Assembly (NCBI GenBank): GCA_002928515.1
Contig: PERI01000002.1
Span: forward strand, 434,001-498,000
Length of the DNA: 64,000 nt
Reading direction: 5' to 3'
From: Hyphomicrobium sp.
GTDB taxonomy: Bacteria; Pseudomonadota; Alphaproteobacteria; Rhizobiales; Hyphomicrobiaceae
Positions 7,192-58,133 of this stretch are shown here, piece by piece. The position numbers were made by a program, and so were the translations under genes. Position 1 is the stretch's first letter, and each line of letters opens with the position of its first letter. The notes below the pieces were generated by a model. That model ran no database searches, was not told the DNA's origin, and was given only the letters and a program-made list of their open reading frames with translations.

Positions 7192-7207
7192 CAATTGGCC
7201 TTCAATT

Positions 7208-7861
7208 TTAGGAGTGCGTATCAAGCAAACGCACGATAGAGGCTCGCAATTCTTCGATGCCCATGCCTTTTTCAGCCGAGGTCACGAGAATTTCTGGATA
7301 GGCTGCGGGATGCTTTGAAAGCTCTGCGCGTGTTTCGGCTGTCACTTTTTCTAGCGCGGTTCGGCTGATCTTGTCGCCTTTGGTCAGCACGGCTTGATAG
7401 GAGACGGCCGCTGTATCGAGCAGCTTCAAGATGCCAGCGTCGGCTTCTTTGATGCCATGACGCGCGTCGATCAGAACGAACACACGCAGCAATGTGCGGC
7501 GACCCGATAAGTAGCCACGCAATACCCGGTTCCAGGCTGCGACTTTGCCTTTGGGCGCTTCGGCGTATCCGTAGCCGGGCATATCGACGATAAACAAACG
7601 TTCGTCGGGAAGCGTGAAAAAATTCAGCTCTTGCGTGCGGCCCGGTGTATTCGATGCGCGCGCCAAATGTGTTTGCCCGACCAGAGCATTGATGAGCGTT
7701 GATTTGCCGACATTGGACCTGCCGGCAAAGGCAATTTCAGGCCTATCGTCAGGTGGCAGATGATTGAGGTCAGGCGAGCCGCGCGCAAAAGTCCACGCGA
7801 GCGTAAATAACCTGCGCCCTGCTTCGATCTCTTCGGCCGTCAGCGGTGCGACGCCCGACAT
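7208..7861 (-). CDS. engB: ribosome-biogenesis GTP-binding protein EngB/YihA
   Basis: Small GTPase needed for maturation of the large ribosomal subunit and normal cell division. The G motifs appear in order: G1 GRSNVGKST near residue 48, G2 threonine in [11 protein letters not shown]3 DMPGYG near 93-98, G4 TKGDK, where a glycine replaces the more usual alanine, and G5 SAEKG. Length (217 aa) is normal. The gene follows yidC with 51 bases between them, in the order rpmH-rnpA-yidC-engB, so it is likely part of the same transcript. Confidence 0.93.
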
Positions 7862-24298: not shown

Positions 24299-25180
24299 TC
24301 ACTCCGCATCGCGCTTTAGTAGCCATGCCATGATCGGGACGCTGATCGGATGCGGTAGAATTTTCAAGGCGGCGTGCGAGATTGGACCTAGCCAACCAGG
24401 CGCGACGACGCGCAAGCCAAAATAATATCCTCGATAAGCTGCGCGTGCGACTGCATCCGGCGAGAGCGCAGGAATGATGCGACGGTAGCGCGCTGTGTCT
24501 GCGCCCATCTTAGCGTGAAAGCGCGTTTCAACCGGGCCTGGTGCCAAGACGCAGAAGCGTACGCCGCTGCCGTAGTTTTCTACTGCCATCGCTTCCGTGA
24601 GCGAGACGACGTAAGCTTTGCTTGCGTAGTATGCGGCCTGATGTGGGCCTGGAACATAGGCGCCGAGAGAGGCAACGTTGAGCAGTCCGCCACGGCGTCG
24701 CGCGAGCATGGCGGGTAAGGCGTGCCGACTGAGACTGGTCAGCACGAGGATATTGAGCTCAACGAGTTGCGCGATATCAGTTTCGTCTTGCTCGACAAAT
24801 GGGCCAGCTAGACCAAGGCCTGCGTTATTGACGAGAACATCGAGAAAATATCCGGCTTGTTCGAGGTCCTGTGAGATGATGGCAAAGGCTTTCGGACTGG
24901 TGAGGTCGCAGGTGATAGGCAGCACAGGCTGGCCTGTGTGACGTTCGATTTCGAGTGCGCTGTTTTTTAAGTCATCTTTCGTGCGCGCGACAATTGCCAC
25001 GTGATGACCATGGCTTGCAAAGCGTTGGGCAATCGCCCTGCCTATTCCGCGCGAGCCTCCCGTCACCACGACGGCAGGTTTCAAGTGCGCAACGGCCTGT
25101 CGGGCTGCCGCAGCACTCGCATCATTTTTTCGTGCCCGACCGAGCCATAGGTCCGCGTTCCGGGTCGGGCCACCTGGCAT
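24299..25180 (-). CDS. short-chain dehydrogenase/reductase (SDR)
   Basis: NAD(P)-dependent oxidoreductase of the classical SDR family, 293 aa. The cofactor motif TGGSRGIGRAIA is at about 40-51, NNAGLG follows, and the catalytic YYASK tetrad motif is in the middle. The first about 30 residues are an extension before the Rossmann fold. The C-terminal part resembles SDRs acting on lipophilic substrates, but the substrate cannot be assigned. It appears monocistronic. Confidence 0.85.
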   Translation of the reverse strand: MPGGPTRNADLWLGRARKNDASAAAARQAVAHLKPAVVVTGGSRGIGRAIAQRFASHGHHVAIVARTKDDLKNSALEIERHTGQPVLPITCDLTSPKAFAIISQDLEQAGYFLDVLVNNAGLGLAGPFVEQDETDIAQLVELNILVLTSLSRHALPAMLARRRGGLLNVASLGAYVPGPHQAAYYASKAYVVSLTEAMAVENYGSGVRFCVLAPGPVETRFHAKMGADTARYRRIIPALSPDAVARAAYRGYYFGLRVVAPGWLGPISHAALKILPHPISVPIMAWLLKRDAE

Positions 25181-25761: not shown

Positions 25762-25816
25762 TGGTGCCGCTTAGGTGACTCGAACACCTGACCCCGTCAT
25801 TACGAATGACGTGCTC
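25762..25816. repeat. island left attachment site (tRNA-Thr 3' fragment)
   Basis: Identical over 55 bases to 37073-37127. On the minus strand it holds the anticodon arm, T-arm, acceptor 3' strand and CCA of tRNA-Thr(CGT). The match stops abruptly in the D-arm/anticodon-arm boundary (GTGCTC then unrelated bases) and right at the CCA. It is not a functional tRNA, since the 5' acceptor strand and D-arm are missing. Confidence 0.92.
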
Positions 25817-25957
25817 ATCAAAATCATAATGCAACATGATGTAAGATGGATCGTCTTATCTATCTGTTTTTATTTATTTTTCTGGATTTCCATTGGCCGG
25901 GCTTTGGCTTAGGTTCGCACTGAGTTGTTACATAAATGCTCAATACGGATCGCCAAA

Positions 25958-27202
25958 ATGATTTCGCAGACAAGATTTTCATCTCAAGCGGATGTTGAAG
26001 GCATTCAACCAAAAACGATGCTTCAGTTTGATCTCACTGACGGTCGTCAACGTGGACTGTGCCTCAGAGTTTCGTATGGAGGGACCAAAACGTACTTCGT
26101 GGCCTACAGATTTCATGGCCATCAACGGCGCATCACCTTAGGGCATCACCCGCATTTGAAACTCAAGGATGCGAGAAGCGAAGCCAACACTATTCTGGCG
26201 ATGGTTGATAGGGGTGAAGATCCCGCAGCCCAAAAGATAAGAAAAAGACAAACTGAGAAATCAAATACGTTATCTGGCGCTGTCGTTGACTACATCAACA
26301 ATTACGCCAAACCAAACACCAGATCATGGCAAACAACTCAGCGCATACTTGAAGCAAATTTTGTAAGCAGATGGCGTTCAATTTCACTTAGAAGCATAGA
26401 TAAATCTATGGTGCGGGATGCTTTAGAGGATATTGCCAGCAACGGTCATCCAAGCGCGGCCAATAAAGCGCTGGCAATTATCCGCAAGTTTTTTAACTGG
26501 TGTGTTGAAGAAGATAGATGTCCTAGCTCGCCGTGTAATGGTCTGCGCATGCCTGCAAAACTAAAATCTCGCCAGCGCGTGCTATCAGAACAAGAGATTC
26601 GCTCAGTACTGACGTCAGCTAAATCACTGGGCTATCCGTTTGGCCACATGGTGACACTGATGTTCCTTACGGCTCAGAGAAGATCAGAGGTCGCAGGAAT
26701 TACTGAGAGCGAAATCAACTTTCAAAGCGCACTGTGGAAGCTAGCCCCAGAACGCACTAAATCAAATCGCTCACATGTTGTGCCCCTAATGCCGTCAGCA
26801 GCAGCTATTATCGCAGATTGCTGTCGAGTGAGTAGACCACTTTTGTTTCCAGCCCGCGGTCGTTCCAATCGCCCCGTTTCTGGTTTTTCTAAATGGAAAC
26901 AGCAGTTGGATAGAAGTTCAGGAGTGCGTGATTGGTGTTTACATGACATCCGCAGGACAGTTTCCACTGGCCTGGGGGAGCTGGAAGTTTTGCCTCATGT
27001 AATTGACAGAGTGCTCAATCATTCAACTGGAAAGATTGGAGGGTTGGCCAAGACTTACAATTGTTATGAATATGTGAGTGAGTGTCGTGCTGCTCTGAAG
27101 TTATGGGAAAACTACCTTACTAATTTAATCGGATGCGAATTGGTATTCACGGAAAACACAAATACAAATTCGTCTTTAAAATTTTTTGAATATAGCTATT
27201 AG
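25958..27202 (+). CDS. tyrosine-type site-specific integrase of the island
   Basis: P4-like tyrosine recombinase, 414 aa from the ATG at 25958 (the frame extends 11 codons further to a TTG). An N-terminal DUF4102-type arm-binding region (GLCLRVSYGG, ITLGHHPHLKLKDAR) is followed by a SAM-like core-binding domain and the catalytic domain, with Arg in LTAQRRSEVAG, HDIRR, and the nucleophile Tyr most likely in LAKTYNCYEY. The protein continues into an AT-rich tail. It lies 140 bases from the left attachment site and reads into the island. No frameshift is seen, so it may still work. Confidence 0.93.
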   Translation: MISQTRFSSQADVEGIQPKTMLQFDLTDGRQRGLCLRVSYGGTKTYFVAYRFHGHQRRITLGHHPHLKLKDARSEANTILAMVDRGEDPAAQKIRKRQTEKSNTLSGAVVDYINNYAKPNTRSWQTTQRILEANFVSRWRSISLRSIDKSMVRDALEDIASNGHPSAANKALAIIRKFFNWCVEEDRCPSSPCNGLRMPAKLKSRQRVLSEQEIRSVLTSAKSLGYPFGHMVTLMFLTAQRRSEVAGITESEINFQSALWKLAPERTKSNRSHVVPLMPSAAAIIADCCRVSRPLLFPARGRSNRPVSGFSKWKQQLDRSSGVRDWCLHDIRRTVSTGLGELEVLPHVIDRVLNHSTGKIGGLAKTYNCYEYVSECRAALKLWENYLTNLIGCELVFTENTNTNSSLKFFEYSY

Positions 27203-27376
27203 GCAAGCATATATCTTAATTCAGTCGGTTTGGATATTTTTTCAATTCTAATAGTTTTGAAAAATGCAATAAGCAAAATGTCGCACTGGCGATTTCCGAC
27301 TCGACTCTGGAAAGGAAATAGGCGACCTATATGAAGCTTATATAGCCTCATATTTGTCAAAAGAGTAGGATATCCC

Positions 27377-27592
27377 GTGAATAGAATTATATCAATAAAA
27401 GATATTTCCTCAATTGTTGGTTGCTCCTTGAGTCATATAGCTAGGCTTGAAAAAATGGGTGAGTTTCCAGCAAGACGGCAAATTGGATCTGGGCGCGTAG
27501 GTTGGTTAGAGACTGAAATATTGAAATGGATTGATGAAAGACCAAAAGCAATGAATCATAAGGAATCTAGACTAAAAACGAAGTGCGGGTAG
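27377..27592 (+). CDS. AlpA-like excisionase/regulator
   Basis: A 71-aa MerR-like helix-turn-helix protein of the AlpA/phage-regulator type: ISIKDISSIVGCSLSHIARL followed by GEFPARRQIGSGRVGWLETEILKWI is the characteristic pattern. It starts at GTG with AGGA 7 bases upstream. Such proteins usually control integrase expression or promote excision, which fits its place 175 bases after the integrase. The 27203-27376 gap is AT-rich and without genes. Confidence 0.88.
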   Translation: MNRIISIKDISSIVGCSLSHIARLEKMGEFPARRQIGSGRVGWLETEILKWIDERPKAMNHKESRLKTKCG

Positions 27593-27811
27593 TCGCCTCT
27601 TTTTTTGATTGCATCAAACACCTACCGTCACAATGTATTGCTTGATGCCAGTATTCCCAATGTCTATTCTGCCAACAATAATGTCTAGTTTCTGGAGAAT
27701 TGATTTCATCAACGCATTCGCTGTGAATGATTCTTTATATTGCAATTTGAATAAGCTTTATTGCTATAATATTCATATTCAGTAGAAGAAATTGGTTGTA
27801 ATGTTTGCTTG

Positions 27812-27841
27812 CTCGCTACGCGAGTTCTCACTTCGTGAGAA
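27812..27841. repeat. pair of adjacent perfect hairpins
   Basis: Two abutting stem-loops: CTCGC-TAC-GCGAG (27812-27824) and TTCTCAC-TTC-GTGAGAA (27825-27841). They lie in the AT-rich gene-poor part of the island, 39 bases before a small frame at 27880. They could be a regulatory RNA element, a replication/transfer feature or a promoter operator; nothing in the sequence decides between them. The stretch 27593-27811 shows no other feature. Confidence 0.6.
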
Positions 27842-27879
27842 GGTTCACTAATGTAATATAATTTAATGGAATTATTTTA

Positions 27880-28131
27880 ATGAAGCATTCGATTCTATTA
27901 TTGCCAGTGGATGAGGTGGTGAGCTTTTGCCCTTATGGGCAAAAGCAGCAAATTTGCCTACGTGTTTTCAGCGGCGTCCGATTGAGAAACTTTTGCAAGA
28001 AGGGGCGGTTGGGCGATCTCCCTTTACTCTCAGCTTTATACCAACGCAAAATTCAGCAACTATCGGGTCAGCTTGTTGAATTTGTCAGGTTGTCAGTTGA
28101 GACAGAGCCTGTCGTGACGGTGAGGTCTTGA
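27880..28131 (+). CDS. possible small island protein
   Basis: An 83-codon frame with no ribosome site and no recognised family. It begins MKHSILLLPVDEVVSF and contains a perfect hairpin at 27923-27946. Its end overlaps the next small frame by a few bases. Either a real accessory gene or chance open sequence in a structured region. Confidence 0.25.
   Translation: MKHSILLLPVDEVVSFCPYGQKQQICLRVFSGVRLRNFCKKGRLGDLPLLSALYQRKIQQLSGQLVEFVRLSVETEPVVTVRS
27923..27946. repeat. perfect 10-bp hairpin
   Basis: GCTTTTGCCC and GGGCAAAAGC enclose a TTAT loop. There is no T-run after it, so it is unlikely to be a rho-independent terminator. It is the third perfect hairpin within 135 bases of the island's gene-poor zone. 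Confidence 0.6.
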
Positions 28132-28148
28132 ACGGAAATAATAGTACG

Positions 28149-28325
28149 ATGTGTCCAAGCAAGCATGTGAATGCCGTTCGTCTTGCTACTCATTCTCCAA
28201 CAGAGGGTAGTGACACAAAGACGAGGCCTGCCACCTCGATTTCATCACGTACTCTCAGTCCAGAGGGTGACGGGCGCCGACATAAGCCGCGCCAAGCATA
28301 CATGCAGGTATACACTTATTTATAG
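28149..28325 (+). CDS. possible small island protein, basic
   Basis: A 58-codon frame from ATG 28149 to 28325; a longer frame starts at TTG 28128. The product is Arg/Thr/Ser-rich and not recognised. The underlying DNA is more GC-rich than its neighbours, which may reflect a different origin. It lies just ahead of the 276-aa gene. Confidence 0.2.
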   Translation: MCPSKHVNAVRLATHSPTEGSDTKTRPATSISSRTLSPEGDGRRHKPRQAYMQVYTYL

Positions 28326-28361
28326 TTCTTCAATTTAGTCGAATCGTCAGGAGTTGGTCTC

Positions 28362-29192
28362 GTGGATAGTGCTTCGTTCCAGAAAATTTCACCGGTGAAA
28401 CTTGAGCCTGAACGCGACACGGGTCATCGTAATTTGCAGGAAATCGCGGATGAGATCTGGTTGCATTACAAGCAAAGCGTTGCAAATATTCTTACGGTTG
28501 CGGATATATGCTTCGAAGCAGATAGCGGACTAATCATTGGTCAGCGGAAGCAACTTATAGCTAAGCTACCCTTCGACGAAGCTACGTTTTCGAAGTACGT
28601 CAAGATCGGCAAGGAAATTTTAAGATTCAGCAATGATCGCAGAAAACTACTCCCCGCATCATTCTCAACGATTTACGAGATAACTTGCTTAGGTGTGGCG
28701 GATACGGAGAAGGCATTTACGACTGGCGTCATTCATCCGGGCCTAACGAGAGAAGACCTTCAAAGCTGGAAGAGAACTAAGCGTTCTAAGAGTGAGCCGG
28801 AGGACATGGATTGCTACGCTCGCGTTGATGTTACTAGAGACGTCACTGAGGAAGTTAAAACCAAAATTTTTGATGCACTTCGCGCATTTGAAAATGAACC
28901 GGCTGTTGATGTGAAATGGATTCTTGAAGATAAGTTGAATTTTGCGCGACTGCGCACCATGAGGCGTTGCATGCTTATTTCTACCCGACGTGTCGTTGGT
29001 GAAGTGCGCAAACAACATAAGCGGACGCATAAATCGGACTGGCCAAGTCCTAGCGAGCTGCAAATTGATCGCAACTCAACAGACGACGAAATCAAGAACG
29101 TGTTGGCGATTGTCGGGCGGCAAGATGAATTTCAAGACATAGTCGAACTTGCTTGGCGGGGCGAAGTATATGGCGTCTCAAACAGACGATGA
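28362..29192 (+). CDS. unrecognised island protein, 276 aa
   Basis: Well-supported gene (GTG start with AGGAG 9 bases upstream), but I do not recognise the family. It has no signal peptide or membrane helix. The N-terminal 120 residues are helical and could be DNA-binding-like (LPFDEATFSKYVKIGKEI, then LPASFSTIYEITCL), with a loose similarity in style to ParB/DUF3102-type phage and plasmid proteins. The C-terminal half is charged. Its place between integrase genes and cargo suggests a maintenance or regulatory role for the island. Confidence 0.6.
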   Translation: MDSASFQKISPVKLEPERDTGHRNLQEIADEIWLHYKQSVANILTVADICFEADSGLIIGQRKQLIAKLPFDEATFSKYVKIGKEILRFSNDRRKLLPASFSTIYEITCLGVADTEKAFTTGVIHPGLTREDLQSWKRTKRSKSEPEDMDCYARVDVTRDVTEEVKTKIFDALRAFENEPAVDVKWILEDKLNFARLRTMRRCMLISTRRVVGEVRKQHKRTHKSDWPSPSELQIDRNSTDDEIKNVLAIVGRQDEFQDIVELAWRGEVYGVSNRR

Positions 29193-29365
29193 TGGCCTGT
29201 GTCAGGATTGCAACTTAAAATGTTAAAGTGCCAGCGGACGAGTTGTTTGTCTTTATGACTATGCTGTGCCGGGTTTACCTAGCTGATTGATTTTATTTGT
29301 AAGACCGTCTTCGCGGGCAGACTTGGAAGTTTTTTTGTAGCTAGTTATTTTATGGAGTTTTGTAG

Positions 29366-30394
29366 GTGTCAAAACCAGTTGTACTCGTGGTTGGTGGCGC
29401 TGGCTACATCGGAGCTCATACTTGTAAAGCTTTAAGCCATGCTGGCTATGTTCCCATAGTACTAGATAACCTCAGCACAGGTCATAAATCTTTTGTAAAA
29501 TGGGGGCCGTTAATCCATGCGGATATTAGAGATGCTGCGAGTTGTGCTGCTGCAATAAAAGAGCATGCCGTATCTGCCGTTCTTCATTTTGCGGGTAGTG
29601 CGTACGTGGGTGAATCCGTATCTGACCCGGCGAAATATTACGATAACAATGTTTTGGGTTCATTATCGCTGCTTCGTGCAATGCGAGAGGCCGACTGCTC
29701 AAGAATTTGTTTTTCTAGCACGTGTGCAGTGTATGGCGAGCCTGACAGCATGCCAATTCGCGAGGACACTCCGCAGCTGCCTGTCAATCCTTATGGTGCG
29801 TCAAAACTGATGGTAGAACGCATTCTCATGGATTTTGCGAAAGCGTACGATCTAAAGGCGATTGCGCTCCGTTATTTTAATGCTGCCGGTGCTGATCCCG
29901 ATTTGGAACTTGGTGAGCTTCGTGATCCCGAGACCCATATTATTCCCCGCGCCATGATGGCTTTACAAGGCCACCTCGACGATTTTTCTGTCTTTGGCGA
30001 GGACTTTCCAACTCCTGACGGGACGGCAATTCGTGACTACATTCATGTGTCTGATTTAGCGGCGGCCCACGTTACTGCAATTGGGCGTTTGTTAGGTGGC
30101 GGGCAGGGTGGGGTGTTCAATCTTGGTACGGGCCGCGGGTACTCAGTCAAAGAGGTATTAGACACGATTGAACGAGCAACTAGGCAGAAATTGCCAAAAG
30201 TTGATGGTCGAAGGCGTCCTGGCGATCCCGCAGCGCTATTTTCTGATCCGACTCTAGCACGCCAAGAATTGGGTTTTGCGCCCAAGTATTCTGATTTGTC
30301 GTTTATTATTGAAACTGCCTGGGCTTGGCATCAACGAGCTCATCCAAAGAAAAATTCAACTATTGACCGCAATGAAATGTTGCTCGCGGGTTGA
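29366..30394 (+). CDS. galE: UDP-glucose 4-epimerase
   Basis: Interconverts UDP-glucose and UDP-galactose, supplying UDP-Gal for glycan assembly. Extended-SDR fold, 342 aa: the NAD motif GGAGYIGAHT is at about residues 10-19, LDNLSTGH follows, the SSTCAVYG segment precedes the catalytic Tyr-X3-Lys in NPYGASK, and ALRYFNAAGAD is also typical. GTG start with GGAG 8 bases upstream. It opens the cargo cluster, and its product fits the galactosyltransferase-like gene that follows. Confidence 0.92.
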   Translation: MSKPVVLVVGGAGYIGAHTCKALSHAGYVPIVLDNLSTGHKSFVKWGPLIHADIRDAASCAAAIKEHAVSAVLHFAGSAYVGESVSDPAKYYDNNVLGSLSLLRAMREADCSRICFSSTCAVYGEPDSMPIREDTPQLPVNPYGASKLMVERILMDFAKAYDLKAIALRYFNAAGADPDLELGELRDPETHIIPRAMMALQGHLDDFSVFGEDFPTPDGTAIRDYIHVSDLAAAHVTAIGRLLGGGQGGVFNLGTGRGYSVKEVLDTIERATRQKLPKVDGRRRPGDPAALFSDPTLARQELGFAPKYSDLSFIIETAWAWHQRAHPKKNSTIDRNEMLLAG

Positions 30395-30413
30395 TTTGGA
30401 GCCGGTGATCTAA

Positions 30414-31235
30414 ATGAACTCAAATTGGTGCTTGTTCACTTCGTATGATGATAACTTTAAGCGGGTATCCTCGTTTGCTATCCCGGCGATGAAAAAGTAT
30501 GCGGCCAAACATTGTATGGATTTTGATGAACACGTAAACTTTCAATGTGGAAGGCCAGTGTCATGGAGTAAGATTTATCTGGCGCTTGATAAATTTGCAT
30601 TAGGGTACGAATACATTTTTTGGGTTGATGCCGATGCTGTTTTTTGTCGTTTTGATGAAGACATTCGTAGTTTAATTACGTCTGACGCTGACATTTATTA
30701 TGCACTAGAGAATATTGGGCAGGACCGATCAAGGCTAAATGCTGGAGTGTGGGTTATGCGAAACACGCATGACACATTGAAATTTCTCCACCGGATTATC
30801 AGTCTTGATCGTTATACCAATCATAAATGGTGGGAGCAGGCAGCCATTATAGAAGCGCTAGGCCTTCGCTCAATGTTTGACAACGACGACCACGGAATTG
30901 ATGCCCCAACAGAATTTATGAAGAAGGTGGCGTGGTTGCCGAACAGGTGGAACTCCTTCGCAGGAATGGACTACAACCCAACTGCGAATATTCGCCATTT
31001 TATTGCGCTTGATAATAATGGCAAAGAAATTGCTATGCGCATCGATGCACTAATTTCTCGTCTTGAGCCAGAACGATCAAGCATGGCAGAAGAAGAATTT
31101 CTGCAGATTACTAAACTACTTTGGAAATCTTGCATAAGAAAAGTTCATGTCCATCAACGTATGTATGCTCCGCGCACACTCCAAAATATTAGTCGGTTTT
31201 TTCGAGGTAGACCACTTTCTGTTCTAGCAAAGTAA
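30414..31235 (+). CDS. GMA12/MNN10-type (GT34-like) glycosyltransferase
   Basis: Glycosyltransferase similar in pattern to the galactosyltransferase GMA12/MNN10 family, 273 aa. It has a nucleotide-sugar metal motif WVDADAVF near residues 74-81, then LNAGVWVMRN, WWEQAAI and WNSF, which are typical of this fold. It starts 19 bases after galE, so UDP-galactose is a natural guess for the donor, though the acceptor is unknown. There is no signal peptide or membrane helix, so it likely works on the cytoplasmic face. Confidence 0.82.
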   Translation: MNSNWCLFTSYDDNFKRVSSFAIPAMKKYAAKHCMDFDEHVNFQCGRPVSWSKIYLALDKFALGYEYIFWVDADAVFCRFDEDIRSLITSDADIYYALENIGQDRSRLNAGVWVMRNTHDTLKFLHRIISLDRYTNHKWWEQAAIIEALGLRSMFDNDDHGIDAPTEFMKKVAWLPNRWNSFAGMDYNPTANIRHFIALDNNGKEIAMRIDALISRLEPERSSMAEEEFLQITKLLWKSCIRKVHVHQRMYAPRTLQNISRFFRGRPLSVLAK

Positions 31236-31321
31236 CGATTGATTTGTTGTTGCCTCAATACTAGCTAATGTAATCGTATGAAACTTGCATATTTTTATAT
31301 GCGAAAATTGTTCATTGTTTT

Positions 31322-32065
31322 TTACATTCCGCAGACTGAGTAAATATCAAGATGTGAAGGTAATTCCCACTTGATACGAGGATCAGGCACGTGGGTGACC
31401 GGATTTACTTTCCCTCGCCAAGCAACGCCCATAATTTGCATCGTCATATAAACCATTGTCGACCAGCCGCTCACCCGCAAGATATTTAATCCCTCTGCCA
31501 CGTCTGGAGATGACAGATCGTGAAAGAGAATTAGAGCATCATTTGACATGAGTTCGGCAACGGCCCTAGCGTCATTGAATGGTGCTGGCTTTTCATGATT
31601 ACCATCGATGAAAGCAAAACTCCAAGGGGCCCCACGAAGTGCTTTTGCTGTTCTTAACGCTGCTGGGCTAGTATATCCATAAAGTCTGGTCTGGATCTCT
31701 GCATCCAAAGTTTGGACTAAGCACTGAAGTTCGGTGCGAAATTCAGGCTTTGCTAGAACCGGATCAATTATATCAAGTTGAATTCCCGCAGTTATGATGT
31801 GCGCTGAAGACCAGCCTCGCCAACAACCGATCTCCACACCGGCTTGCCCTGCGAAAATCGCTGCGTTGCCGTACAATATCGCTGCCTCATCTGTGGAGAT
31901 AAAACCTACTAATCTATCGCGATCGTCGGTATACCAACGATGAGGTATATTTCGTCTAAGGTGTGGCCATGGATTCGAGTCGGGTGAGGTAAGGACACGT
32001 CTTGGAAACATGTGGTCAACGGTTCTGTGTTGCAGGCCAGGTGACTTATAGTCCCAAAGTTCCAT
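31322..32065 (-). CDS. class I SAM-dependent methyltransferase (CmcI/Methyltransf_24-like)
   Basis: Methyltransferase, 247 aa, the only leftward gene in the cargo. The SAM site is AGVEIGCWRGWSS (about 90-102), acidic IIDPVL follows, and FAFIDGNHEK, with a metal-binding style DG(N)H, is characteristic of the CmcI/TylF-related group. It may methylate a sugar of the island's glycan. Its convergent orientation relative to galE and galactosyltransferase suggests a separate promoter or separate acquisition. Confidence 0.78.
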   Translation of the reverse strand: MELWDYKSPGLQHRTVDHMFPRRVLTSPDSNPWPHLRRNIPHRWYTDDRDRLVGFISTDEAAILYGNAAIFAGQAGVEIGCWRGWSSAHIITAGIQLDIIDPVLAKPEFRTELQCLVQTLDAEIQTRLYGYTSPAALRTAKALRGAPWSFAFIDGNHEKPAPFNDARAVAELMSNDALILFHDLSSPDVAEGLNILRVSGWSTMVYMTMQIMGVAWRGKVNPVTHVPDPRIKWELPSHLDIYSVCGM

Positions 32066-32141
32066 GCGGCAACCCTTGCATATTAGCAGCTTAACTTTTT
32101 GCCTTACTTCAGGCTAAGTTTTCAAATTTGGATAGTTATGC

Positions 32142-33413
32142 ATGCGCTCAGTGAAGAACCTTATTCCTGCATGGCTTAAGGGCCCGGTTTGGTATCGGTT
32201 AGAACGTCGGAATAAAATTACTCTAGGGCCAGATACTAAGATATTTTCTAATGGTAAGTTTGGAACACCAGGACGACGGAAATTAGTTTTAGCTGGACAT
32301 GAAGCTACGCGAACTGGTGCACCGCTGATACTTCTTGAATTGGCTAAAAACTTTTCAAGCAATGAAGATTTGGAGCTTCTATTATTTTTAGAGCGAGGCG
32401 GTCCGCTGGTCAGCGAATACGCAAAATTTTGCACGGTAATAATAAACAATAATTACTTCTATAAAATTGGTCAACCTAGAGTAGCTGATCTTATACATGA
32501 AATTTCAGAGCCAAGACCTGTTTCAGCAATTGTAAACTCGGCGGAAACATGGCGTTTAAGTCAGCAACTTCATGAATCAGGCTTATTCATTATCAGCTTA
32601 ATTCACGAAAATATGGCTCGATATCAAAATGAAGCGCTAGATTCTATTTTGGATAATTCTGCTCGTATTATTTTTCCTGCAGAAGCACTTAAGCAAGTAG
32701 CGATTAATACAAGAACTACGTTTGATCGGTCAGAAGTATTGCCTCAAGGATTGCTTAGGCCAAATTTCGGACAGCGGGACAAATACGCCGCAATATTGGA
32801 AGTAAGAAATCAGCTTAATATAAGTCAGGAAAAGCCAATTGTGCTAGCTTGTGGCACACGTGATCTTCGCAAAGGTTTTGACATTTTCCACCAAGTTGCA
32901 CGCGCAGTTATCGCAGAAAATATAGTTCGGCCTCATTTCTTATGGTTGGGTGGTTCGACCAGCCGCCGTATCATGGATCGCGTAAGCGTAGATTATTGGC
33001 TTTCCTGGGACAAAGAAGTGCTCGATTTAGGCAATGATATATCACACATAGATGAAGTCCCCGACCCTGAATTATTCTTTTTGGCCGCAGACGCGTTTAT
33101 TTTAACGTCGCGAGATGATCCTTTCCCGTGTGTTGTGCATGAGGCGATGAGTGCTAAGCTACCAGTGATAGCATTTGATCGCGCTGGTGGAAGTGCTGAG
33201 GCGCTTGCAGATGGGGCAGGCATTATCGTGCCTTACTTGGATGTAACCGCAATGGCTAACGCTGTAACAACTATTATTTTAGAGCGCGCAAATGCAAATG
33301 AAATGATAGATCGAGCGGAAAAACGTGTGAGGCAAACCTATAACTTTGAAAACTATGCCTCAAAAATAAGGAATATGCTGCATGAGGCAGAAGTTCAACA
33401 TCCAAATCCGTAA
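32142..33413 (+). CDS. GT-B glycosyltransferase, family 4-like
   Basis: Glycosyltransferase of GT-B fold, 423 aa. The C-terminal GT4 domain carries ACGTRDLRKGFDIF, then PDPELFFLAADAFILTSRDDPFPCVVHEAMSAKLPVIAF, GSAEAL and GIIVPY, the usual donor-binding pattern. The N-terminal domain contains LVLAGHEATRTGAPLILLELAK. No membrane segment. It is probably one step of the island glycan. Codon use is AT-rich. Confidence 0.88.
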   Translation: MRSVKNLIPAWLKGPVWYRLERRNKITLGPDTKIFSNGKFGTPGRRKLVLAGHEATRTGAPLILLELAKNFSSNEDLELLLFLERGGPLVSEYAKFCTVIINNNYFYKIGQPRVADLIHEISEPRPVSAIVNSAETWRLSQQLHESGLFIISLIHENMARYQNEALDSILDNSARIIFPAEALKQVAINTRTTFDRSEVLPQGLLRPNFGQRDKYAAILEVRNQLNISQEKPIVLACGTRDLRKGFDIFHQVARAVIAENIVRPHFLWLGGSTSRRIMDRVSVDYWLSWDKEVLDLGNDISHIDEVPDPELFFLAADAFILTSRDDPFPCVVHEAMSAKLPVIAFDRAGGSAEALADGAGIIVPYLDVTAMANAVTTIILERANANEMIDRAEKRVRQTYNFENYASKIRNMLHEAEVQHPNP

Positions 33414-33566
33414 CTACTTATGATGACCGCACTGCATGCGTTTTTACTTTACAACTGAACAATTTCATTTTCTAACTTCGCGTAAGGTTATGAACTCTGC
33501 TAATTTTTTCTGACAATCAAAGTAGCATTTCATATACGGTATATTTTGTGATTGCTGGGTGTCTGA

Positions 33567-35336
33567 ATGGCCAGTCTTCGAAAGAGAATAAAAAAGTACA
33601 TTAAAAAGATCTATCAAAATTATAATCCGCTATTTTACAAATTACTTCATCCTTCTCCAGGCAATAGATCTCCGCATAGCGTTGCAAAACACGGTGAAGT
33701 CGATCAGTACGCGGTAATCAATGCTGCGTTCGATAGAACGTATTATTTAAGACGCTACGTTGATATAGCGATTGCAAAAATTGACCCTGTAAAACATTAC
33801 ATTGAATTTGGTGCTCGTGAGGGTCGAGATCCTTCGCCAGATTTTGTGACCAGCTATTATTTAAAACGCTATCCCGATGTGAAGAAAAGTGGATTAAATC
33901 CATTTTATCACTACCTCAGGTTTGGACAATTTGAAGAACGAGGGACGAATTTTTTTAGCCCTGGCGAGCCGGAATTCGATTTAATGTGTGAAATAAGCGA
34001 TCTGTCGCCAATACAGGTTTCCACTGAAATTTCTAAGAGGCGGCAGAATTTAAGAGAGCGTCTAAATAATGGAATTTTGGGAGAAATGGTATCCAAGGCA
34101 GGTCAATTAGAGCCATTGATTTTGCACTCTTGGTTGTCAGCGTATACCGCGCAAGTGCCTCCATTTCATTCAGAGTGGGCTGTAAATCAGATAACGGCAA
34201 TGTATCGCCTACATCAGGCCGCTAAGTACCGAAGGGCTAAGGCCGTTATTGTTATGCGTTCATGCGGCATAGGGGGCGTTAGTCGGATTGCAGCACATCT
34301 TGCCAATGCATTAGTTGATATATATGGCGAAGATGAAGTCGTTGTTTTATATACGGACTCAAGTGATAAGAAAGCACTTGAGTGGTTCCCTGCAAGTTGT
34401 CGACTTATTGATGTTGCAATAGTCACTCAGAAGCTTGGGAAGGCTGAGCGAGAAAAGCTAATAGTAGAGTTCATCCGCTGTCTTCAACCCACTACTGTCT
34501 TTAATATGAATAGTCCTTTGCTTTGGAGCGCTATGGGAGCTTATGGCAAAGCCCTAGCACATAGTTGTAATTTGTATGCCTATCTATTCTGTAACGACGT
34601 AAATATATTTGGTAATGTAGAAGGGTATCCGGCAAAGCAATTTTATAGATACTTTGACGTATACAAAGCCGTCATAACGGATAGCGAGTTTCTGAAAGAC
34701 GAATTAAGTGAGAAATTCTTAGTGCCTTTGACGCAAATGCACAGGTTAGTGGCAATTGCAACGCCGATTTCCAATCACATGCCAAATATTGCTTCTGCAA
34801 ATCGGCAGTCTGGCCAGCGCCCTAAAGTATTTTGGGCTGGGAGATTCGATCGTCAAAAACGTATCGACATTGTGATTAATATTGCAACACGTCTTCCAAA
34901 CATTGATTTTCATATTTGGGGGGAGTCAGTACTCGACAACGCATTTAAAAAAATGAAGCTACCTAAGAATATATTCAATGAGGGATTATATACTGATTTT
35001 TCTAGTCTACCTCTGCAAAACTGCGATCTTTGGCTTTATACTTCTCAATGGGATGGCGTGCCTAATGTGCTATTCGAAGTTGCTTCCGCCGGTGTTCCCC
35101 TCGTAGGTTCAATAGCGGGGGGGTGCGGTGAAGTCCTGATAGAAGGGTTATGTGAGCGAATTGATAACATTGAGGATGTAGAAGCATTTGAATTAGCTAT
35201 AAGACGAGTTATTGCTCAGCCTCAAGAAGCAAGGGTTCGTGCGAATCTTCTACGAGATCGCATCTTGCAGGCTAGAACACCCCAGAAATACCGAACAGCC
35301 ATTGAATCATTAATTACTCATAGTGAGATATTATGA
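33567..35336 (+). CDS. large glycosyltransferase with N-terminal repeat module
   Basis: A 589-aa protein. Residues about 53-130 hold two copies of a tyrosine-rich repeat (YYLRRYVDIAI then PVKHYIEFGAREGRDPS, and YYLKRYPDVKKSGLNPFYHYL then FGQFEERG), a module common at the front of surface-glycan glycosyltransferases. A GT-B domain follows (VIVMRSCGIGGVSRIAAHLA), and a GT4-like domain fills about 410-585 (VFWAGRFDRQKRIDI, SQWDGVPNVLFEVASAGVPLVG). Its stop overlaps the next gene as ATGA. The gap 33414-33566 is AT-rich and empty. Confidence 0.85.
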   Translation: MASLRKRIKKYIKKIYQNYNPLFYKLLHPSPGNRSPHSVAKHGEVDQYAVINAAFDRTYYLRRYVDIAIAKIDPVKHYIEFGAREGRDPSPDFVTSYYLKRYPDVKKSGLNPFYHYLRFGQFEERGTNFFSPGEPEFDLMCEISDLSPIQVSTEISKRRQNLRERLNNGILGEMVSKAGQLEPLILHSWLSAYTAQVPPFHSEWAVNQITAMYRLHQAAKYRRAKAVIVMRSCGIGGVSRIAAHLANALVDIYGEDEVVVLYTDSSDKKALEWFPASCRLIDVAIVTQKLGKAEREKLIVEFIRCLQPTTVFNMNSPLLWSAMGAYGKALAHSCNLYAYLFCNDVNIFGNVEGYPAKQFYRYFDVYKAVITDSEFLKDELSEKFLVPLTQMHRLVAIATPISNHMPNIASANRQSGQRPKVFWAGRFDRQKRIDIVINIATRLPNIDFHIWGESVLDNAFKKMKLPKNIFNEGLYTDFSSLPLQNCDLWLYTSQWDGVPNVLFEVASAGVPLVGSIAGGCGEVLIEGLCERIDNIEDVEAFELAIRRVIAQPQEARVRANLLRDRILQARTPQKYRTAIESLITHSEIL

Positions 35337-36076
35337 TCAGTGCAGATCTTACTGTTATCGTAACTGCCCAGACCGAGACTGTTGTGGCTGGACCAGCAAT
35401 GCGTAGCGCTGAGATTGCTATAGGCAATGCAGAAGCCGCAGGCTTTGTAATTGAGCGAGTAATAAGTTTAGATAAGGCATCGCATCTATGTCGTGAATAT
35501 TTTCAACAATCTGCATTCGCGGCTTGGAAGAAAGTTGAGTATGATTTTGCAGATCCATATATTACTCGTAATGCATCAGTCGAAAATTCACTTGGTCGCT
35601 GGATTGCATTTCTAGATGCTGATGATTTATTTAGCGAAAATTGGCTTGTTACCTCTGCAAAGCTTCTTGTTGAGTTAGAAGGAAGCGGTGGTAATGTAAT
35701 TGTACATCCTGAAATTAATTGGATATTTGACGGTGCTATATATGTATTTGCAAAGCTGTCACAGGATGACCTATTATTTTATCCAGAATATTTTTATCTA
35801 GACAATCCATATGACATGCTTTGCATGGCCCCACGCAAAGCATACCTCGAAATCCCATACGTAAAACGAGACGTTAATAATGGTTTTGGTTACGGAGATT
35901 GGCAGTGGAATATAGAAACTATGGCGTCTTCATGGAGGCACGTCATTGCCGAGAATACAATTATTTTCAAGCGGCGAAGAGATACGTCTGTATTTTTAGA
36001 AAGTAGCTTGCGAAAGTCTGTTATCCATCAAATTGAGCCTATGGCGATTGACAGACTTAAAAAGTTAGGTCGGTAG
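35333..36076 (+). CDS. GT2-family glycosyltransferase, paralog 1
   Basis: GT-A fold, family 2-like, 247 aa. The donor motif is FLDADDLFSENWL at about residues 92-104, after an N-terminal LTVIVTAQTETVVAGP segment. It overlaps the gene before by four bases (ATGA). Its neighbour at 36097 is clearly related along its full length, indicating a tandem duplication. The acceptor is unknown. Confidence 0.83.
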   Translation: MISADLTVIVTAQTETVVAGPAMRSAEIAIGNAEAAGFVIERVISLDKASHLCREYFQQSAFAAWKKVEYDFADPYITRNASVENSLGRWIAFLDADDLFSENWLVTSAKLLVELEGSGGNVIVHPEINWIFDGAIYVFAKLSQDDLLFYPEYFYLDNPYDMLCMAPRKAYLEIPYVKRDVNNGFGYGDWQWNIETMASSWRHVIAENTIIFKRRRDTSVFLESSLRKSVIHQIEPMAIDRLKKLGR

Positions 36077-36096
36077 CTGAACAGTAAATTATTATA

Positions 36097-36837
36097 ATGA
36101 AAAATATAGATATATCAGTTGTTCTTAACGTGCACTCAGAAACTGTAGTATCGGGTCCTACGATCCGTAGTGCAGAAAGTGCAATTTTGATTGCTGAGGC
36201 TGCAGGGTTTATAGTTGAACGGCTTATTTGCTTTGATAGGCCGTCGAGAGAATGCAGATTGTACTTTACGCAACCGATATTTTCTTTATGGCGTAAATTA
36301 GAATTCGATATCGGCGATCTGGGTATTGTGCGTAACAAAGTATCTACATTGTCTAAGGGGCGATGGATTGCATGGTTGGATGCTGACGATTTATTCAGTG
36401 AAAATTGGCTTGTTTTAGGTGCACAATCGCTAGCATCTAGTCGTAGTAGCGGTGATAAAGTAATAGTCCATCCTGAAATGAATTTAGTATTCGATGGTTA
36501 TGCGAATGCCTACACTAAGTTAAATCAGTCAGATATACTATTTACGCCATACTATTTTTATTTTTTAAATTATTATGATTCTTTATGTATGGCGCCACGA
36601 GAGTTGTTTAGTGATGTACCATATATTTGCAGTGATTTTGAGCTCGGATTTGCGCTCGAAGATTGGCTGTGGAATATTCAAACTATCTACGCGGGCTGGA
36701 AGCATGAAATTGTAAAAGATACTATCATTTTTAAGCGTAGGCGTGATATGTCATTGGTAGTAAAAAGTAGTCAGAGACGAACTATTCTTTGGCCTGTCGA
36801 AGCCCTGGCAATAGATGAAATCGCAAAATTGCGGTGA
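36097..36837 (+). CDS. GT2-family glycosyltransferase, paralog 2
   Basis: GT-A protein of 246 aa, a diverged duplicate of the preceding gene: shared ETVV-GP start, AEAAGF-VER, GRWIA-LDADDLFSENWLV, VIVHPE and TIIFKRRRD. By eye about half of the residues match. No ribosome site is strong. It is the last cargo gene before the right attachment site. Confidence 0.83.
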   Translation: MKNIDISVVLNVHSETVVSGPTIRSAESAILIAEAAGFIVERLICFDRPSRECRLYFTQPIFSLWRKLEFDIGDLGIVRNKVSTLSKGRWIAWLDADDLFSENWLVLGAQSLASSRSSGDKVIVHPEMNLVFDGYANAYTKLNQSDILFTPYYFYFLNYYDSLCMAPRELFSDVPYICSDFELGFALEDWLWNIQTIYAGWKHEIVKDTIIFKRRRDMSLVVKSSQRRTILWPVEALAIDEIAKLR

Positions 36838-37072
36838 TATCGGCTATTATATTTTAGATTTATATCGTAATATTAATAGTAGTTGCTTGAGCAAAGCATG
36901 ACTTGCCAAGTATTTATTCCTAATTACTTCTTCTCAGTATTTTGAGTTATTTTAATAGTTGCTGTTATTTTTAATAACTTTTTCAAATTGAGCCCTTTAT
37001 CCATAAACAATCCATAATTAAATTTTAGATTAGCGAAGATATGTGTAGTTGTTCATATGTTATTGAAAGTAT
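36838..37072. other. AT-rich right end of the island, no gene seen
   Basis: About 235 very AT-rich bases between the last glycosyltransferase and the right attachment site, with only tiny frames. It may hold integrase arm sites or a transcription end, but no clear stem-loop with T-run stands out. Confidence 0.6.
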
Positions 37073-37127
37073 TGGTGCCGCTTAGGTGACTCGAACACCT
37101 GACCCCGTCATTACGAATGACGTGCTC
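37073..37127. repeat. island right attachment site, inside tRNA-Thr
   Basis: The intact copy of the 55-bp repeat, forming the 3' part of the functional tRNA-Thr gene. Exact match to 25762-25816. Confidence 0.92.
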
Positions 37128-37148
37128 TACCGGCTGAGCTAAAGCGGC
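37073..37148 (-). tRNA. tRNA-Thr (anticodon CGT)
   Basis: On the minus strand: acceptor GCCGCTT/AAGCGGC, D-arm with GCTCAGC, anticodon stem CGTCA/TGACG around TTCGTAA (anticodon CGT), T-arm with TTCGAGT, discriminator A and CCA, 76 nt in all. It reads codon ACG. The gene is the attachment target of the island and remains complete on this side. Confidence 0.96.
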
Positions 37149-37247
37149 TTTCCGGACGCGGCGCACAGCGTCGCGAGACGCGTGGGATAGCCTTTGCGGT
37201 CGGCAAAAGCAAGCGTTGGCAGAGTTTGGTGCTCGATGGCATGTGCG

Positions 37248-39026
37248 TCACTTAATGGCGCGAAACGGTCTCTTTGAATATGACGCTGTGGTCTCGTCCT
37301 CTGATGTGTCCGGTCCCGGATCGTCGGGTGCGCGCGGCGCTACGAAGAGTTTAGCATCGCCGCTCTTCGGCTCTTTCTGGCTGTGTGACGTCGGTTGCAC
37401 GGGACTGGTGGGTTTGTTCGCGGTCAAGCGTGACTGAGGGGTTGCAGTGATCGTGGCCTCATCGGAACCATTTCTGACGGGTTTGATTTGTGCCGCCTCG
37501 TCTGCACGTCCGCGGATGGCGCGTTCGGTGACGGGCTGTAGGCGGATCGGCTCCGGCTCGGCTTGAGCTGGATTTGGTGGTTCTGATAGCGTCGATGATA
37601 CTGTACTGGCAGGGACATGTTCCATCGCAGCCGTCAGCGTCAATTCGGCTTCAGCTCGTTGATTCGCCGTGCTTCCAGTGGCGGCATCGATAGCCAGCAA
37701 CTCTTCCAAGCGTGACGTGACAATCTCTGTGCGCGCTTCATCGCGTGATTCAACTGGCACGCGCCATTGGTAAGCGTCAAGCTTGCCGGTGACCGGTGAG
37801 ATCGCTTCCCAATGATCAGAGACGACGCCGTCGGCCATCCATACGGGGTCTCGCGATGCTGTCACCGCGCGTGCAAGCCACTCTCGCACGCGGCCTTTAT
37901 CGCCGCTCTCACCTGCTTCGATGCGAGCCATGAGTGTTGCGACGCGTTGGGTCAGTCGATTGGCGAGCAGTGGTTCGAGCGCGTAGCGCGCCTCGTCAAA
38001 CATGCGCGCTTCAATGGCGGTCGTGGCAATGGCAATTGTGCTTTCGATGGAATGTGGATTGAGCGCTGCGAGTTGGCGTACGCGGTCCAGCCGATCGCGG
38101 GTGCTGTCACCGATGCGCGCGTGTGCATACGCCGTCGCAAGATCTGGATGGGGAGATTTGACCCAAGTTTTTTGCAAAACTTTTGCAGCCTTCGCTGTAT
38201 TGCCGCGTGATGCATAAATGCGACCGGCGACTGCAGCAGCCGGTACGAGGTCTGGGGCAAGGGCATGGGCTTCGAGCGCAAATGTCAACGCTTGATCGGT
38301 CCCATTTTCTTCAGCTTCGATGGCTTTTGCAGTGAGCAGCACGGCTCGTTTGCGATCGGCAACAGCTTTTTCGACATTACCTGTGCGCTTGGCATGGTCC
38401 AATGTTTCCAGTGCGCCAGCCCAATCTTTCTGTTGGCACTGCATGTCGAACAGGGCATCGGCAGACCAGCCCAGTTTTGGGTTTGTTTTGAGTGCGCGCC
38501 CTGCGAGTTGGCGGGCAGCTTCGGCCGAGCCTTCGCGCTCGGCTTCTAGATATAGACCCCGTAACCCGAGCTGCTCTGTTTCTGGAGACGACAACATGGC
38601 TTCATAGATGCGCCGTGCCGTCGCGCGATCGCCTGACAATTGTGCGGCTTGGGCGCGCAATAGCTGTGTCATCGGTTCATGGGGCAGCGCATTGCGGGCC
38701 AATAAAGCGTAACGGTTCGCGAGGATTTTATCCCCGGCGCCAATAGCGATCATGCCACTTGAGAGCGCATCGAGGCCACGTTTTTTGCGTCGATTGAGGA
38801 TTCGTTCGCCGATGATAGCCGGGCTATGCCAGAGCGTGCGAGCGATAGACCAAAGAAACACTGCGCTCGCCATGACAATTGCAAGAATGACGACGGCGCG
38901 GAACACTGTGGTTTCGATGTCGTATCCTTGCCACGTAACTTGCAATGTGCCCGGCCGGTCGGCGAGCCAACCCAAACCGCTTGCAACCACGACGACGGCC
39001 AAGAGATAAACGACGAGACGTAGCAT
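37248..39026 (-). CDS. hemY: HemY-like membrane TPR protein
   Basis: Protein with a HemY N-terminal domain, linked by context to tetrapyrrole synthesis but without enzyme activity of its own; not the protoporphyrinogen oxidase of the same name. Two N-terminal membrane helices (about 4-20 and 43-63, with RPGTLQVTWQGYDIET between them) are followed by TPR-like helices (about 100-400) and a long disordered Pro/Thr/Glu-rich tail (about 460-592). An AAAGG site lies 8 bases before the ATG. It follows the mitofilin-like gene by 21 bases in the standard hemC-hemD-mitofilin-hemY order. Confidence 0.88.
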   Translation of the reverse strand: MLRLVVYLLAVVVVASGLGWLADRPGTLQVTWQGYDIETTVFRAVVILAIVMASAVFLWSIARTLWHSPAIIGERILNRRKKRGLDALSSGMIAIGAGDKILANRYALLARNALPHEPMTQLLRAQAAQLSGDRATARRIYEAMLSSPETEQLGLRGLYLEAEREGSAEAARQLAGRALKTNPKLGWSADALFDMQCQQKDWAGALETLDHAKRTGNVEKAVADRKRAVLLTAKAIEAEENGTDQALTFALEAHALAPDLVPAAAVAGRIYASRGNTAKAAKVLQKTWVKSPHPDLATAYAHARIGDSTRDRLDRVRQLAALNPHSIESTIAIATTAIEARMFDEARYALEPLLANRLTQRVATLMARIEAGESGDKGRVREWLARAVTASRDPVWMADGVVSDHWEAISPVTGKLDAYQWRVPVESRDEARTEIVTSRLEELLAIDAATGSTANQRAEAELTLTAAMEHVPASTVSSTLSEPPNPAQAEPEPIRLQPVTERAIRGRADEAAQIKPVRNGSDEATITATPQSRLTANKPTSPVQPTSHSQKEPKSGDAKLFVAPRAPDDPGPDTSEDETTASYSKRPFRAIK

Positions 39027-56777: not shown

Positions 56778-58133
56778 TTGCGCGTGAAAAGCAGTGTGGC
56801 CATCGCCGATGGATTAGCTGCGCGCGATGTTGCCGCCTCAGCGCTGTTTTCGGTGTTCGTCGAAAAGCGTGCGTTCGACGATGTGTTCGCCAAAGTTTCG
56901 GAAGCGCGCTCTTTGGCGCCGCGTGATCGCGGGTTTGCTCGATTGATTGCGGCGACCGTATTGCGCCATCGCGGTTCACTCAACGCAGTGATCCGCAGTT
57001 TTCTCGATAAGCCGTTGCCGGAAAATCAGGGTCGCCTTGAACCGATCCTGCTGGGTGCTGCTGCTCAGTTGCTGTTTCTCAGAACGCCACCACACGCGGC
57101 TATTTCGTTGGCTGTCGATCAATGTCGCGTCGATAGTGCGGCGCGCCGATTCGATAAATTGGCCAACGCTGTTTTGCGTCGGGTCAGTGTCGAGGGCGAT
57201 GCCATTCTGGCTGAACTCGATCCGGTCACATTGAATGTGCCACATTGGCTTTTAGTGCGCTGGCAGAATACTTATGGACATGCGGTTGCGCGCGAGATTG
57301 CGCTGGCTTCGCTGACAGAAGCACCGCTCGATCTGTCCATCCATGGCGATGTGAATGCATGGGCAGAAACTTTAGGCGGCAGCGTGTTACCGACGGGGTC
57401 CGTGCGATTGGCTGCCTCAGGACGCATCGAAGATTTGCCTGGATACGATGACGGGGCTTGGTGGGTGCAGGATGCCGCTGCGGCTTTGCCGGTGAAATTA
57501 TTCGGCGATGTGCGCGGAAAGCATGTCGCTGATTTGTGTGCTGCGCCTGGCGGCAAGACTGCGCAGCTTGCTGCTGGCGGCGCGCGCGTCACGTCCGTCG
57601 ATAAATCGCCAGGTCGGCTGAAGCGGCTGAAAGGCAATTTGGCTCGGCTCGGCTTGGACGCGGAAACGGCTGTGGCTGATGCGTCGGCGTTCGATCCCGG
57701 CTATCAGTATGATGCCGTTTTGATTGATGCACCCTGTACTGCGACAGGCACCATTCGGCGACACCCAGACATTTTGCATTTGAAGCGCGATGACGATGTT
57801 GCAGCACTCGCGGCCGTGCAGGCTCCCATTCTTGCGCGTGCAGCAAATCTGGTGAAACCAGGTGGCACACTCGTCTATTGCACGTGTTCATTGGAGCCCG
57901 AGGAAGGTCGTGATCAAGTCGCAAAATTTCTAGCCATGTATCCGGAATTTTCGCGATCACCTGTTACACCTTTTGATCTCGTAGGCTCTAGCAGCGTCGG
58001 TCACGACAGCGTCAAGTCCTGGATTTCTGACGAGGGCGATCTGCGGACATTGCCGCACCACTTGTCCGACTTGCCGTTCGGACAGACAGGAATGGATGGG
58101 TTTTTCGCAGCTAAGCTGATCCGCGACGCTTAA
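56778..58133 (+). CDS. rsmB: 16S rRNA (cytosine-C5) methyltransferase RsmB-like
   Basis: Methylates a cytosine of 16S rRNA (C967 in E. coli). 451 aa: an NusB-like N-terminal RNA-binding domain (about 10-140), then a Rossmann methyltransferase domain with CAAPGGKTAQLAAGG, DAPCTATGTIRRHPD (motif IV cysteine) and CTCSLEPEEG (catalytic cysteine). The open frame begins at TTG 56778; GTG at 56784 or 56793 is also possible, and no ribosome site settles it. Confidence 0.9.
   Translation: MRVKSSVAIADGLAARDVAASALFSVFVEKRAFDDVFAKVSEARSLAPRDRGFARLIAATVLRHRGSLNAVIRSFLDKPLPENQGRLEPILLGAAAQLLFLRTPPHAAISLAVDQCRVDSAARRFDKLANAVLRRVSVEGDAILAELDPVTLNVPHWLLVRWQNTYGHAVAREIALASLTEAPLDLSIHGDVNAWAETLGGSVLPTGSVRLAASGRIEDLPGYDDGAWWVQDAAAALPVKLFGDVRGKHVADLCAAPGGKTAQLAAGGARVTSVDKSPGRLKRLKGNLARLGLDAETAVADASAFDPGYQYDAVLIDAPCTATGTIRRHPDILHLKRDDDVAALAAVQAPILARAANLVKPGGTLVYCTCSLEPEEGRDQVAKFLAMYPEFSRSPVTPFDLVGSSSVGHDSVKSWISDEGDLRTLPHHLSDLPFGQTGMDGFFAAKLIRDA

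Follow-up and report, generated by a model that had tools for sequence, protein, structure and literature searches.

Within a 64,000-nucleotide stretch of a Hyphomicrobium sp. genome (contig PERI01000002.1, positions 434,001 to 498,000; hereafter the window), we identified an 11.3-kb segment between two copies of a tRNA 3′ end as a non-autonomous integrative genomic island, inserted by a tyrosine integrase at the 3′ end of the tRNA-Thr(CGT) gene. We put the probability of this reading at roughly 90%, a figure that covers both the island and its mode of insertion; the alternatives weighed below concern how it moves or whether it can still move, and so overlap with it. It is a well-bounded and well-preserved integrase island of a known kind, with a textbook anatomy. 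An earlier reading of the same DNA (the original prediction) had proposed an island here without naming its cargo, which is a galE/glycosyltransferase/methyltransferase cassette of glycan type.

The borders are marked by a direct repeat of 55 nt (25762–25816 and 37073–37127) with 100% identity and a spacing of 11,311, the one 55-nt pair returned by the repeat finder; the chance expectation for such a repeat within the window is about 1e-28. The repeated sequence is the 3′ 55 nt of tRNA-Thr(CGT). Its right copy forms nt 22–76 of the tRNA called by ARAGORN on the minus strand, where Rfam also calls a tRNA, and its left copy is a remnant without the 5′ end, which breaks off at tRNA nt 22. The same tRNA 3′ end thus borders the segment on both sides, with 55/55 positions identical. 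When the genome was queried with 37040–38240, two places were returned, the tRNA with its flank and the remnant, and no second tRNA-Thr(CGT) gene was seen in this search. The features at the borders are as follows.

24299–25180, minus strand: left-flank short-chain dehydrogenase (PF00106), which adjoins the tRNA in genomes with an empty site
25762–25816, minus strand: distal attachment repeat, remnant of the tRNA-Thr(CGT) 3′ 55 nt (100% identity to 37073–37127)
36838–37072, no strand: AT-rich non-coding right end, perhaps an integrase-binding arm, with a single 10-base direct repeat
37073–37148, minus strand: intact tRNA-Thr(CGT) (ARAGORN, Rfam), whose 3′ 55 nt (37073–37127) are the tRNA-side repeat
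37248–39026, minus strand: right-flank HemY-like protein (PF07219), found past the same tRNA in relatives

The 10-base repeat is the only candidate for integrase arm sites at the right end and is not interpretable. Ten genes in the island were taken as credible, encoding the integrase, AlpA, a 276-aa protein, GalE, a nucleotide-sugar transferase-like protein, a methyltransferase, two GT4-type glycosyltransferases and two tandem GT2-like glycosyltransferases. The first two sit just inside the left repeat copy.

25925–27202, plus strand: tyrosine integrase with arm-binding and catalytic domains (PF13356, 9e-17; PF00589, 9.1e-15; both above cut-off)
27377–27592, plus strand: AlpA-family regulator and probable excision factor (PF05930, 4.8e-10; phrog_2790, excisionase and transcriptional regulator, 3.6e-14)

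In the integrase, R252, K279, H340, R343, H366 and Y378, which we take to be the catalytic residues of the family, are each present in 37–39 of 39 aligned integrases (the window's included, G033b left out). The composition of the island is atypical as well, with 42.8% G+C vs 55.4% in the rest of the window and a GC3 of 0.31–0.47 across its ten genes vs 0.52–0.58 across three flank genes. The original prediction had described the identical 55-base repeat at both edges, an integrase and an AlpA-like factor inside the left edge, an AT-rich composition and flanking genes on both sides (here the dehydrogenase and HemY), all of which we confirmed. Its proposal of insertion at the tRNA 3′ end by a tyrosine integrase also holds up, given the repeat, the conserved catalytic residues, the composition and the empty sites found in the genus.

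These empty sites came from a search of 21 relatives of the same genus, in which the site was placed in 20 (G003 gave no match). In 3/20, all of other species than the window's, a left-flank gene lies 241 bp (G004), 307 bp (G012) or 155 bp (G005) from an intact tRNA-Thr, with HemY beyond. The original prediction had anticipated an empty tRNA-Thr site in relatives and had named its absence everywhere as the contrary outcome, which was not what we observed. Four of the 20 (G002, G017, G018 and G020) hold other integrase islands at the same tRNA, each with a remnant and an adjoining integrase 8.5–24 kb from the tRNA. In ten more (G001, G006, G007, G008, G009, G010, G013, G015, G016 and G021), the dehydrogenase is 2.4–17.5 kb off and no tRNA-Thr 3′ remnant was detected, and in G011, G014 and G019 the dehydrogenase was not found within the stretch fetched.

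For the mechanism, we propose that the integrase would have recombined the chromosomal tRNA-Thr gene with a circular molecule that bore a copy of the tRNA-Thr(CGT) 3′ part. After this reaction, the right side would have a complete tRNA and the left side a 55-nt remnant, which are the products present in the sequence. Excision would be the reverse reaction, probably aided by AlpA, as the role of AlpA in satellites suggests, and the island is plausibly still excisable. The island has no recognised gene for exit from the cell, so its transfer would depend on a helper, either through phage transduction or through a conjugative element that acts in trans. Genes for replication, capsid or relaxase were likewise not recognised, and the island is therefore not a recognisable satellite or mobilisable element.

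Some points weigh against this account. The genomes with an empty site belong to other species, and for 13/20 sites in the genus neither a clear empty site nor an integrase island was established. In addition, the glycan role of the cargo rests on domain matches, of which both GT2-like ones are below the Pfam cut-off.

The integrase places the island among its relatives. Integrases related at E 1e-40 or better occur in 46/297 genomes of the order (the window's own included), and the best match outside its own genome in this search is 46% identical. The closest integrase found elsewhere is that of G020 (48% identical over its longer piece). The named contigs with relatives are from Alphaproteobacteria, including Hyphomicrobium and metagenome-assembled genomes of Hyphomicrobiaceae. 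In a tree of 40 integrases, the window's is sister to that of G020 (support 100/99), within a clade of 15 (99/95). A tRNA-matching stretch lies antisense to the integrase and at most 800 bp upstream of it in 23/34 integrase-relative loci (E 0.01 or better), although these include two weak matches (E 0.002 and 0.006), a complete tRNA gene and some short matches, and there was no shuffled control. For the window's island and seven relatives whose two ends could be placed (L035, L038, L039, G002, G017, G018 and G020), the integrase lies at the end opposite the intact tRNA and points inward. Ten of the 14 other clade loci gave an AlpA match, and AlpA does not adjoin the integrase in G020 and L033.

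The G020 island (10.4 kb) is in the same genus, at the same tRNA-Thr(CGT), and shares with the window's island the sister integrase (100/99) and a remnant adjoining it. It differs in its cargo, which includes copper proteins and a TonB-receptor plug domain, and in having AlpA near the tRNA end rather than beside the integrase. The G020 integrase (L063, oriented 6462–7654) also differs in that it reads in two overlapping frames; this island may be stuck, or the frames may reflect an assembly error.

Further features were noted at the site in other genomes. In G002 (L046), one tRNA-Thr remnant follows another (oriented positions 7136 and 8557; exact over 37 and 53 nt), which suggests stacked insertions. 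Inside the site loci of G002, G018 and G007 (L046, L061 and L050), we also noted inverted 19–22-nt matches to the tRNA-Thr 5′ end at about 180–220 bp from the tRNA 3′ end; these are weak (E 1e-5 to 6e-4) and at a similar distance in the three genomes.

The original prediction had also inferred a recent acquisition from the undiverged repeats. The repeats are indeed identical, but the inference from them is weak: 0/55 differences bound neutral divergence only below 5.3%, and in 6/8 islands (window, G002, G018, L035, L038 and L039) the remnant is identical to its own tRNA over the best block from the 3′ end. The remaining two match at 45/46 (G020) and 44/46 (G017) positions, and the outer second remnant of G002 at 37/37. 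Given this bound and these exact remnants, we discarded dating by repeat identity. As for the source, the T-stem variant on both window copies is found only in the window's genome (G000), G004 and G012 among 21 same-genus genomes with the tRNA read. This would suggest that the source of the island carried the same variant, given that one T-stem of the two is expected to have come in with the element. The variant could not be used to name a donor, as G000 does not group with G004 and G012 in the HemY tree. A separate case was noted in G017 (L060): the T-stem pair seen in G006, G011, G014 and G016 occurs with both halves in the remnant at oriented position 6617, while the intact tRNA has the variant of G007, the sister of G017. 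The T-stem of this remnant may have arrived with the element.

What the clade carries was read from a selection of proteins at 12 of the 14 other loci (all but L031 and L119). Within the clade, both island ends are established only for G020 and the window, so some of the genes listed here may be outside islands. Type I restriction genes were found in L114 and L120, Cas3-like, Cas5 and Csd1 genes in L032, DndB in L130, AbiEii in L033, and a reverse transcriptase and, further out, an AcrB-type pump in L131. L113 has a relaxase and NikA/MobC-like genes and L115 a relaxase and coupling-protein genes, while L118 has a short match to a coupling-protein domain, L116 a sub-threshold ATPase match, and the protein scan of L117 gave nothing. 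L113 (1684–6660, G000 contig C3) belongs to the window's own genome, where it holds a second integrase (43% identical), a short tRNA-like match upstream and a relaxase region near the contig end, and it is likely a mobilisable element.

Relaxase genes in the same clade raise the question of whether the window's island is itself an integrative mobilisable element, carried by a conjugative helper acting through an unrecognised origin of transfer. L113, in the same genome, and L115 speak for this, as does the coupling-protein match of L118. However, relaxase, MobC and coupling-protein families had no Pfam match among the ten island proteins (an origin of transfer was not searched for), and we consider this reading unlikely. 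Somewhat more doubtful still is that the island is a relic, from a single insertion that is now fixed and immobile, with repeat identity kept by chance. The gene-poor ~0.76 kb after AlpA may be eroded sequence, and identity over 55 sites cannot date the insertion; against this, the integrase and AlpA are open and conserved, the repeat is exact, and a sister integrase lies within an island at the same tRNA in another species.

We regard as improbable that the island is a phage satellite (of the P4-like, PICI/cfPICI or PICMI type), either as such or after losing its genes for replication and packaging and gaining glycan cargo. The reading was prompted by distant integrase relatives whose elements carry genes for capsid, protease, terminase or portal (L038, L039 and L133) or genes of primase-helicase type (G002, L035, L121, L122, L124, L127, L128, L129 and L132). 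The size of 11.3 kb (P4-like satellites have a median size of 10 kb, according to an excerpt of PMC8628076) and the int-AlpA module are also satellite-like, and the G017 island at the same tRNA encodes a DUF5906 protein, of the family used for the PICMI primase (excerpt of PMC10803314). PICMI satellites share int and alpA with the window's island; they differ in having a primase by definition, and their prototype is at fis (PMC10803314, in part). As stated in the same excerpt, PICMI alpA was needed for excision and sufficient for activation, which makes AlpA the excision trigger. This reading was lowered for two reasons: genes of these kinds went unrecognised in the island, and the clades are separate in the tree. 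The ten island proteins gave 0 matches to primase or helicase, capsid, scaffold or terminase and other packaging families, and 0/15 clade integrase loci matched ten satellite query proteins, although several loci are cut by contig ends and genes may be missed; the satellites fall outside the clade.

Some of the distant relatives are elements of note in themselves. L038 (9610–20231) and L039 (9814–20828) are ~11-kb elements bounded by tRNA repeats, with phage capsid and prohead protease genes. L133 (unbounded) has the same two genes, and terminase and portal are present in L039 and L133. These three are likely capsid-forming satellites in Alphaproteobacteria. In the primase-bearing loci L122, L124, L128 and L129, an intact tRNA-Met(CAT) lies 9–11 kb beyond the integrase, and no tRNA remnant was detected upstream of it.

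The rest of the window's island, to the right of AlpA, holds the following features.

27600–28361, no strand: largely AT-rich stretch with short open reading frames only and no recognisable gene (no Rfam match)
28362–29192, plus strand: 276-aa protein, weakly DUF3102-like (tblastn 5e-5, residues 26–175, to a plasmid protein annotated DUF3102)
29366–30394, plus strand: GalE, UDP-glucose 4-epimerase (TIGR01179, 4.8e-125, above curated cut-off)
30414–31235, plus strand: nucleotide-sugar transferase-like protein (PF03407, 9.8e-7, above cut-off)
31322–32065, minus strand: methyltransferase, Methyltransf_24 (PF13578, 1.2e-9, above cut-off)
32142–33413, plus strand: GT4-type glycosyltransferase (PF00534, 2.3e-19)
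33567–35336, plus strand: 589-aa protein with a C-terminal GT4-type domain (PF00534, 9.8e-12)
35333–36076, plus strand: GT2-like glycosyltransferase, copy 1 (PF00535, 1.3e-4, just below cut-off)
36097–36837, plus strand: GT2-like glycosyltransferase, copy 2, a tandem duplicate (PF00535, 5e-4, below cut-off)

These sugar-nucleotide and glycosyltransferase genes most likely alter a surface polysaccharide or glycoprotein, as judged from their domains. The substrate of the methyltransferase is left open, because it also has a marginal match to phrog_2675 (DNA methyltransferase, 7e-5). The two GT2-like copies are 51% identical to each other. Relatives of the 589-aa glycosyltransferase were found in 7/296 other genomes of the order (E 1e-30) and none in viral contigs; relatives of the GT2-like protein were likewise found in 7/296 (E 1e-10), and the two adjoin in six genomes (G131, G094, G047, G302, G104 and G243). 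Around the pair in G131 (six proteins scanned) are a further glycosyltransferase and an open reading frame with sulfotransferase and aminotransferase domains, a setting that fits surface-glycan synthesis. Around the pair in G302 (four proteins scanned) are a sensor kinase, a beta-lactamase-fold protein and a MobA/MobL-type relaxase, which says nothing on this role.

Among plasmid records, 7 matched the 276-aa protein weakly (DUF3102). This protein gave no credible Pfam match, no relative in viral contigs, phage records or PDB sequences, and none in the 296 other genomes of the order at E 1e-5. Its single-sequence structure model (pLDDT 43) was unusable. The three short open reading frames in 27600–28361 had no credible Pfam match. 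PADLOC found nothing in two window proteins (28362–29189 and 33567–35333) and gave two marginal matches among eight proteins of other islands. Compared with plasmids, the island DNA matched one record (1% of the query, 96.4% identity), whose 55-base place was taken as a putative tRNA match. Elsewhere in the window, ARAGORN called a tRNA-Asn(ATT) at 57843–57932, which is probably false, as it is without an Rfam match and looks protein-coding by eye.

Comparable islands have been described in other bacteria. In Sinorhizobium meliloti (excerpt of PMC11476347), islands have direct repeats of the tRNA 3′ end that are about as long as the one here (49 bp at tRNA-Lys(CUU)), and certain tRNA genes are hot spots, but the example island is far larger (137.5 kb), and in this excerpt a tRNA-Thr island appears only in the title of a cited work. 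The tmRNA islands I23, I44 and I55 of Pseudomonas fluorescens SBW25 (excerpt of PMC12595487) share a tyrosine integrase (intY), AlpA, direct repeats and variable cargo without recognised transfer genes, and differ in their tmRNA target, 14-bp repeat, AlpA at the far end and anti-phage cargo; according to the same excerpt, I55 is transduced by a jumbo phage. Among the literature matches listed, judged by title and the start of the abstract, there was no paper on a glycan island at tRNA-Thr in this genus.

In this genus, one tRNA-Thr gene is a repeated entry point for unrelated islands. More tentatively, the clade of 15 could be an unnamed alphaproteobacterial family of tRNA islands with a fixed chassis (a tRNA 3′ remnant, an inward-reading integrase at the tRNA-distal end and usually AlpA nearby) and free exchange of cargo, which would include restriction, CRISPR-Cas, Dnd, reverse transcriptase, AbiEii, copper, mobilisation and, here, surface-glycan genes; the glycan cassette would then be an anti-phage cargo that alters the receptor. 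As a whole, we see this proposal as possible rather than probable. Through this island, a glycan cassette joins the phage-defence, metal and mobilisation genes seen beside other integrases of the clade, which provides a testable case for the idea that islands of this sort remodel the cell surface.

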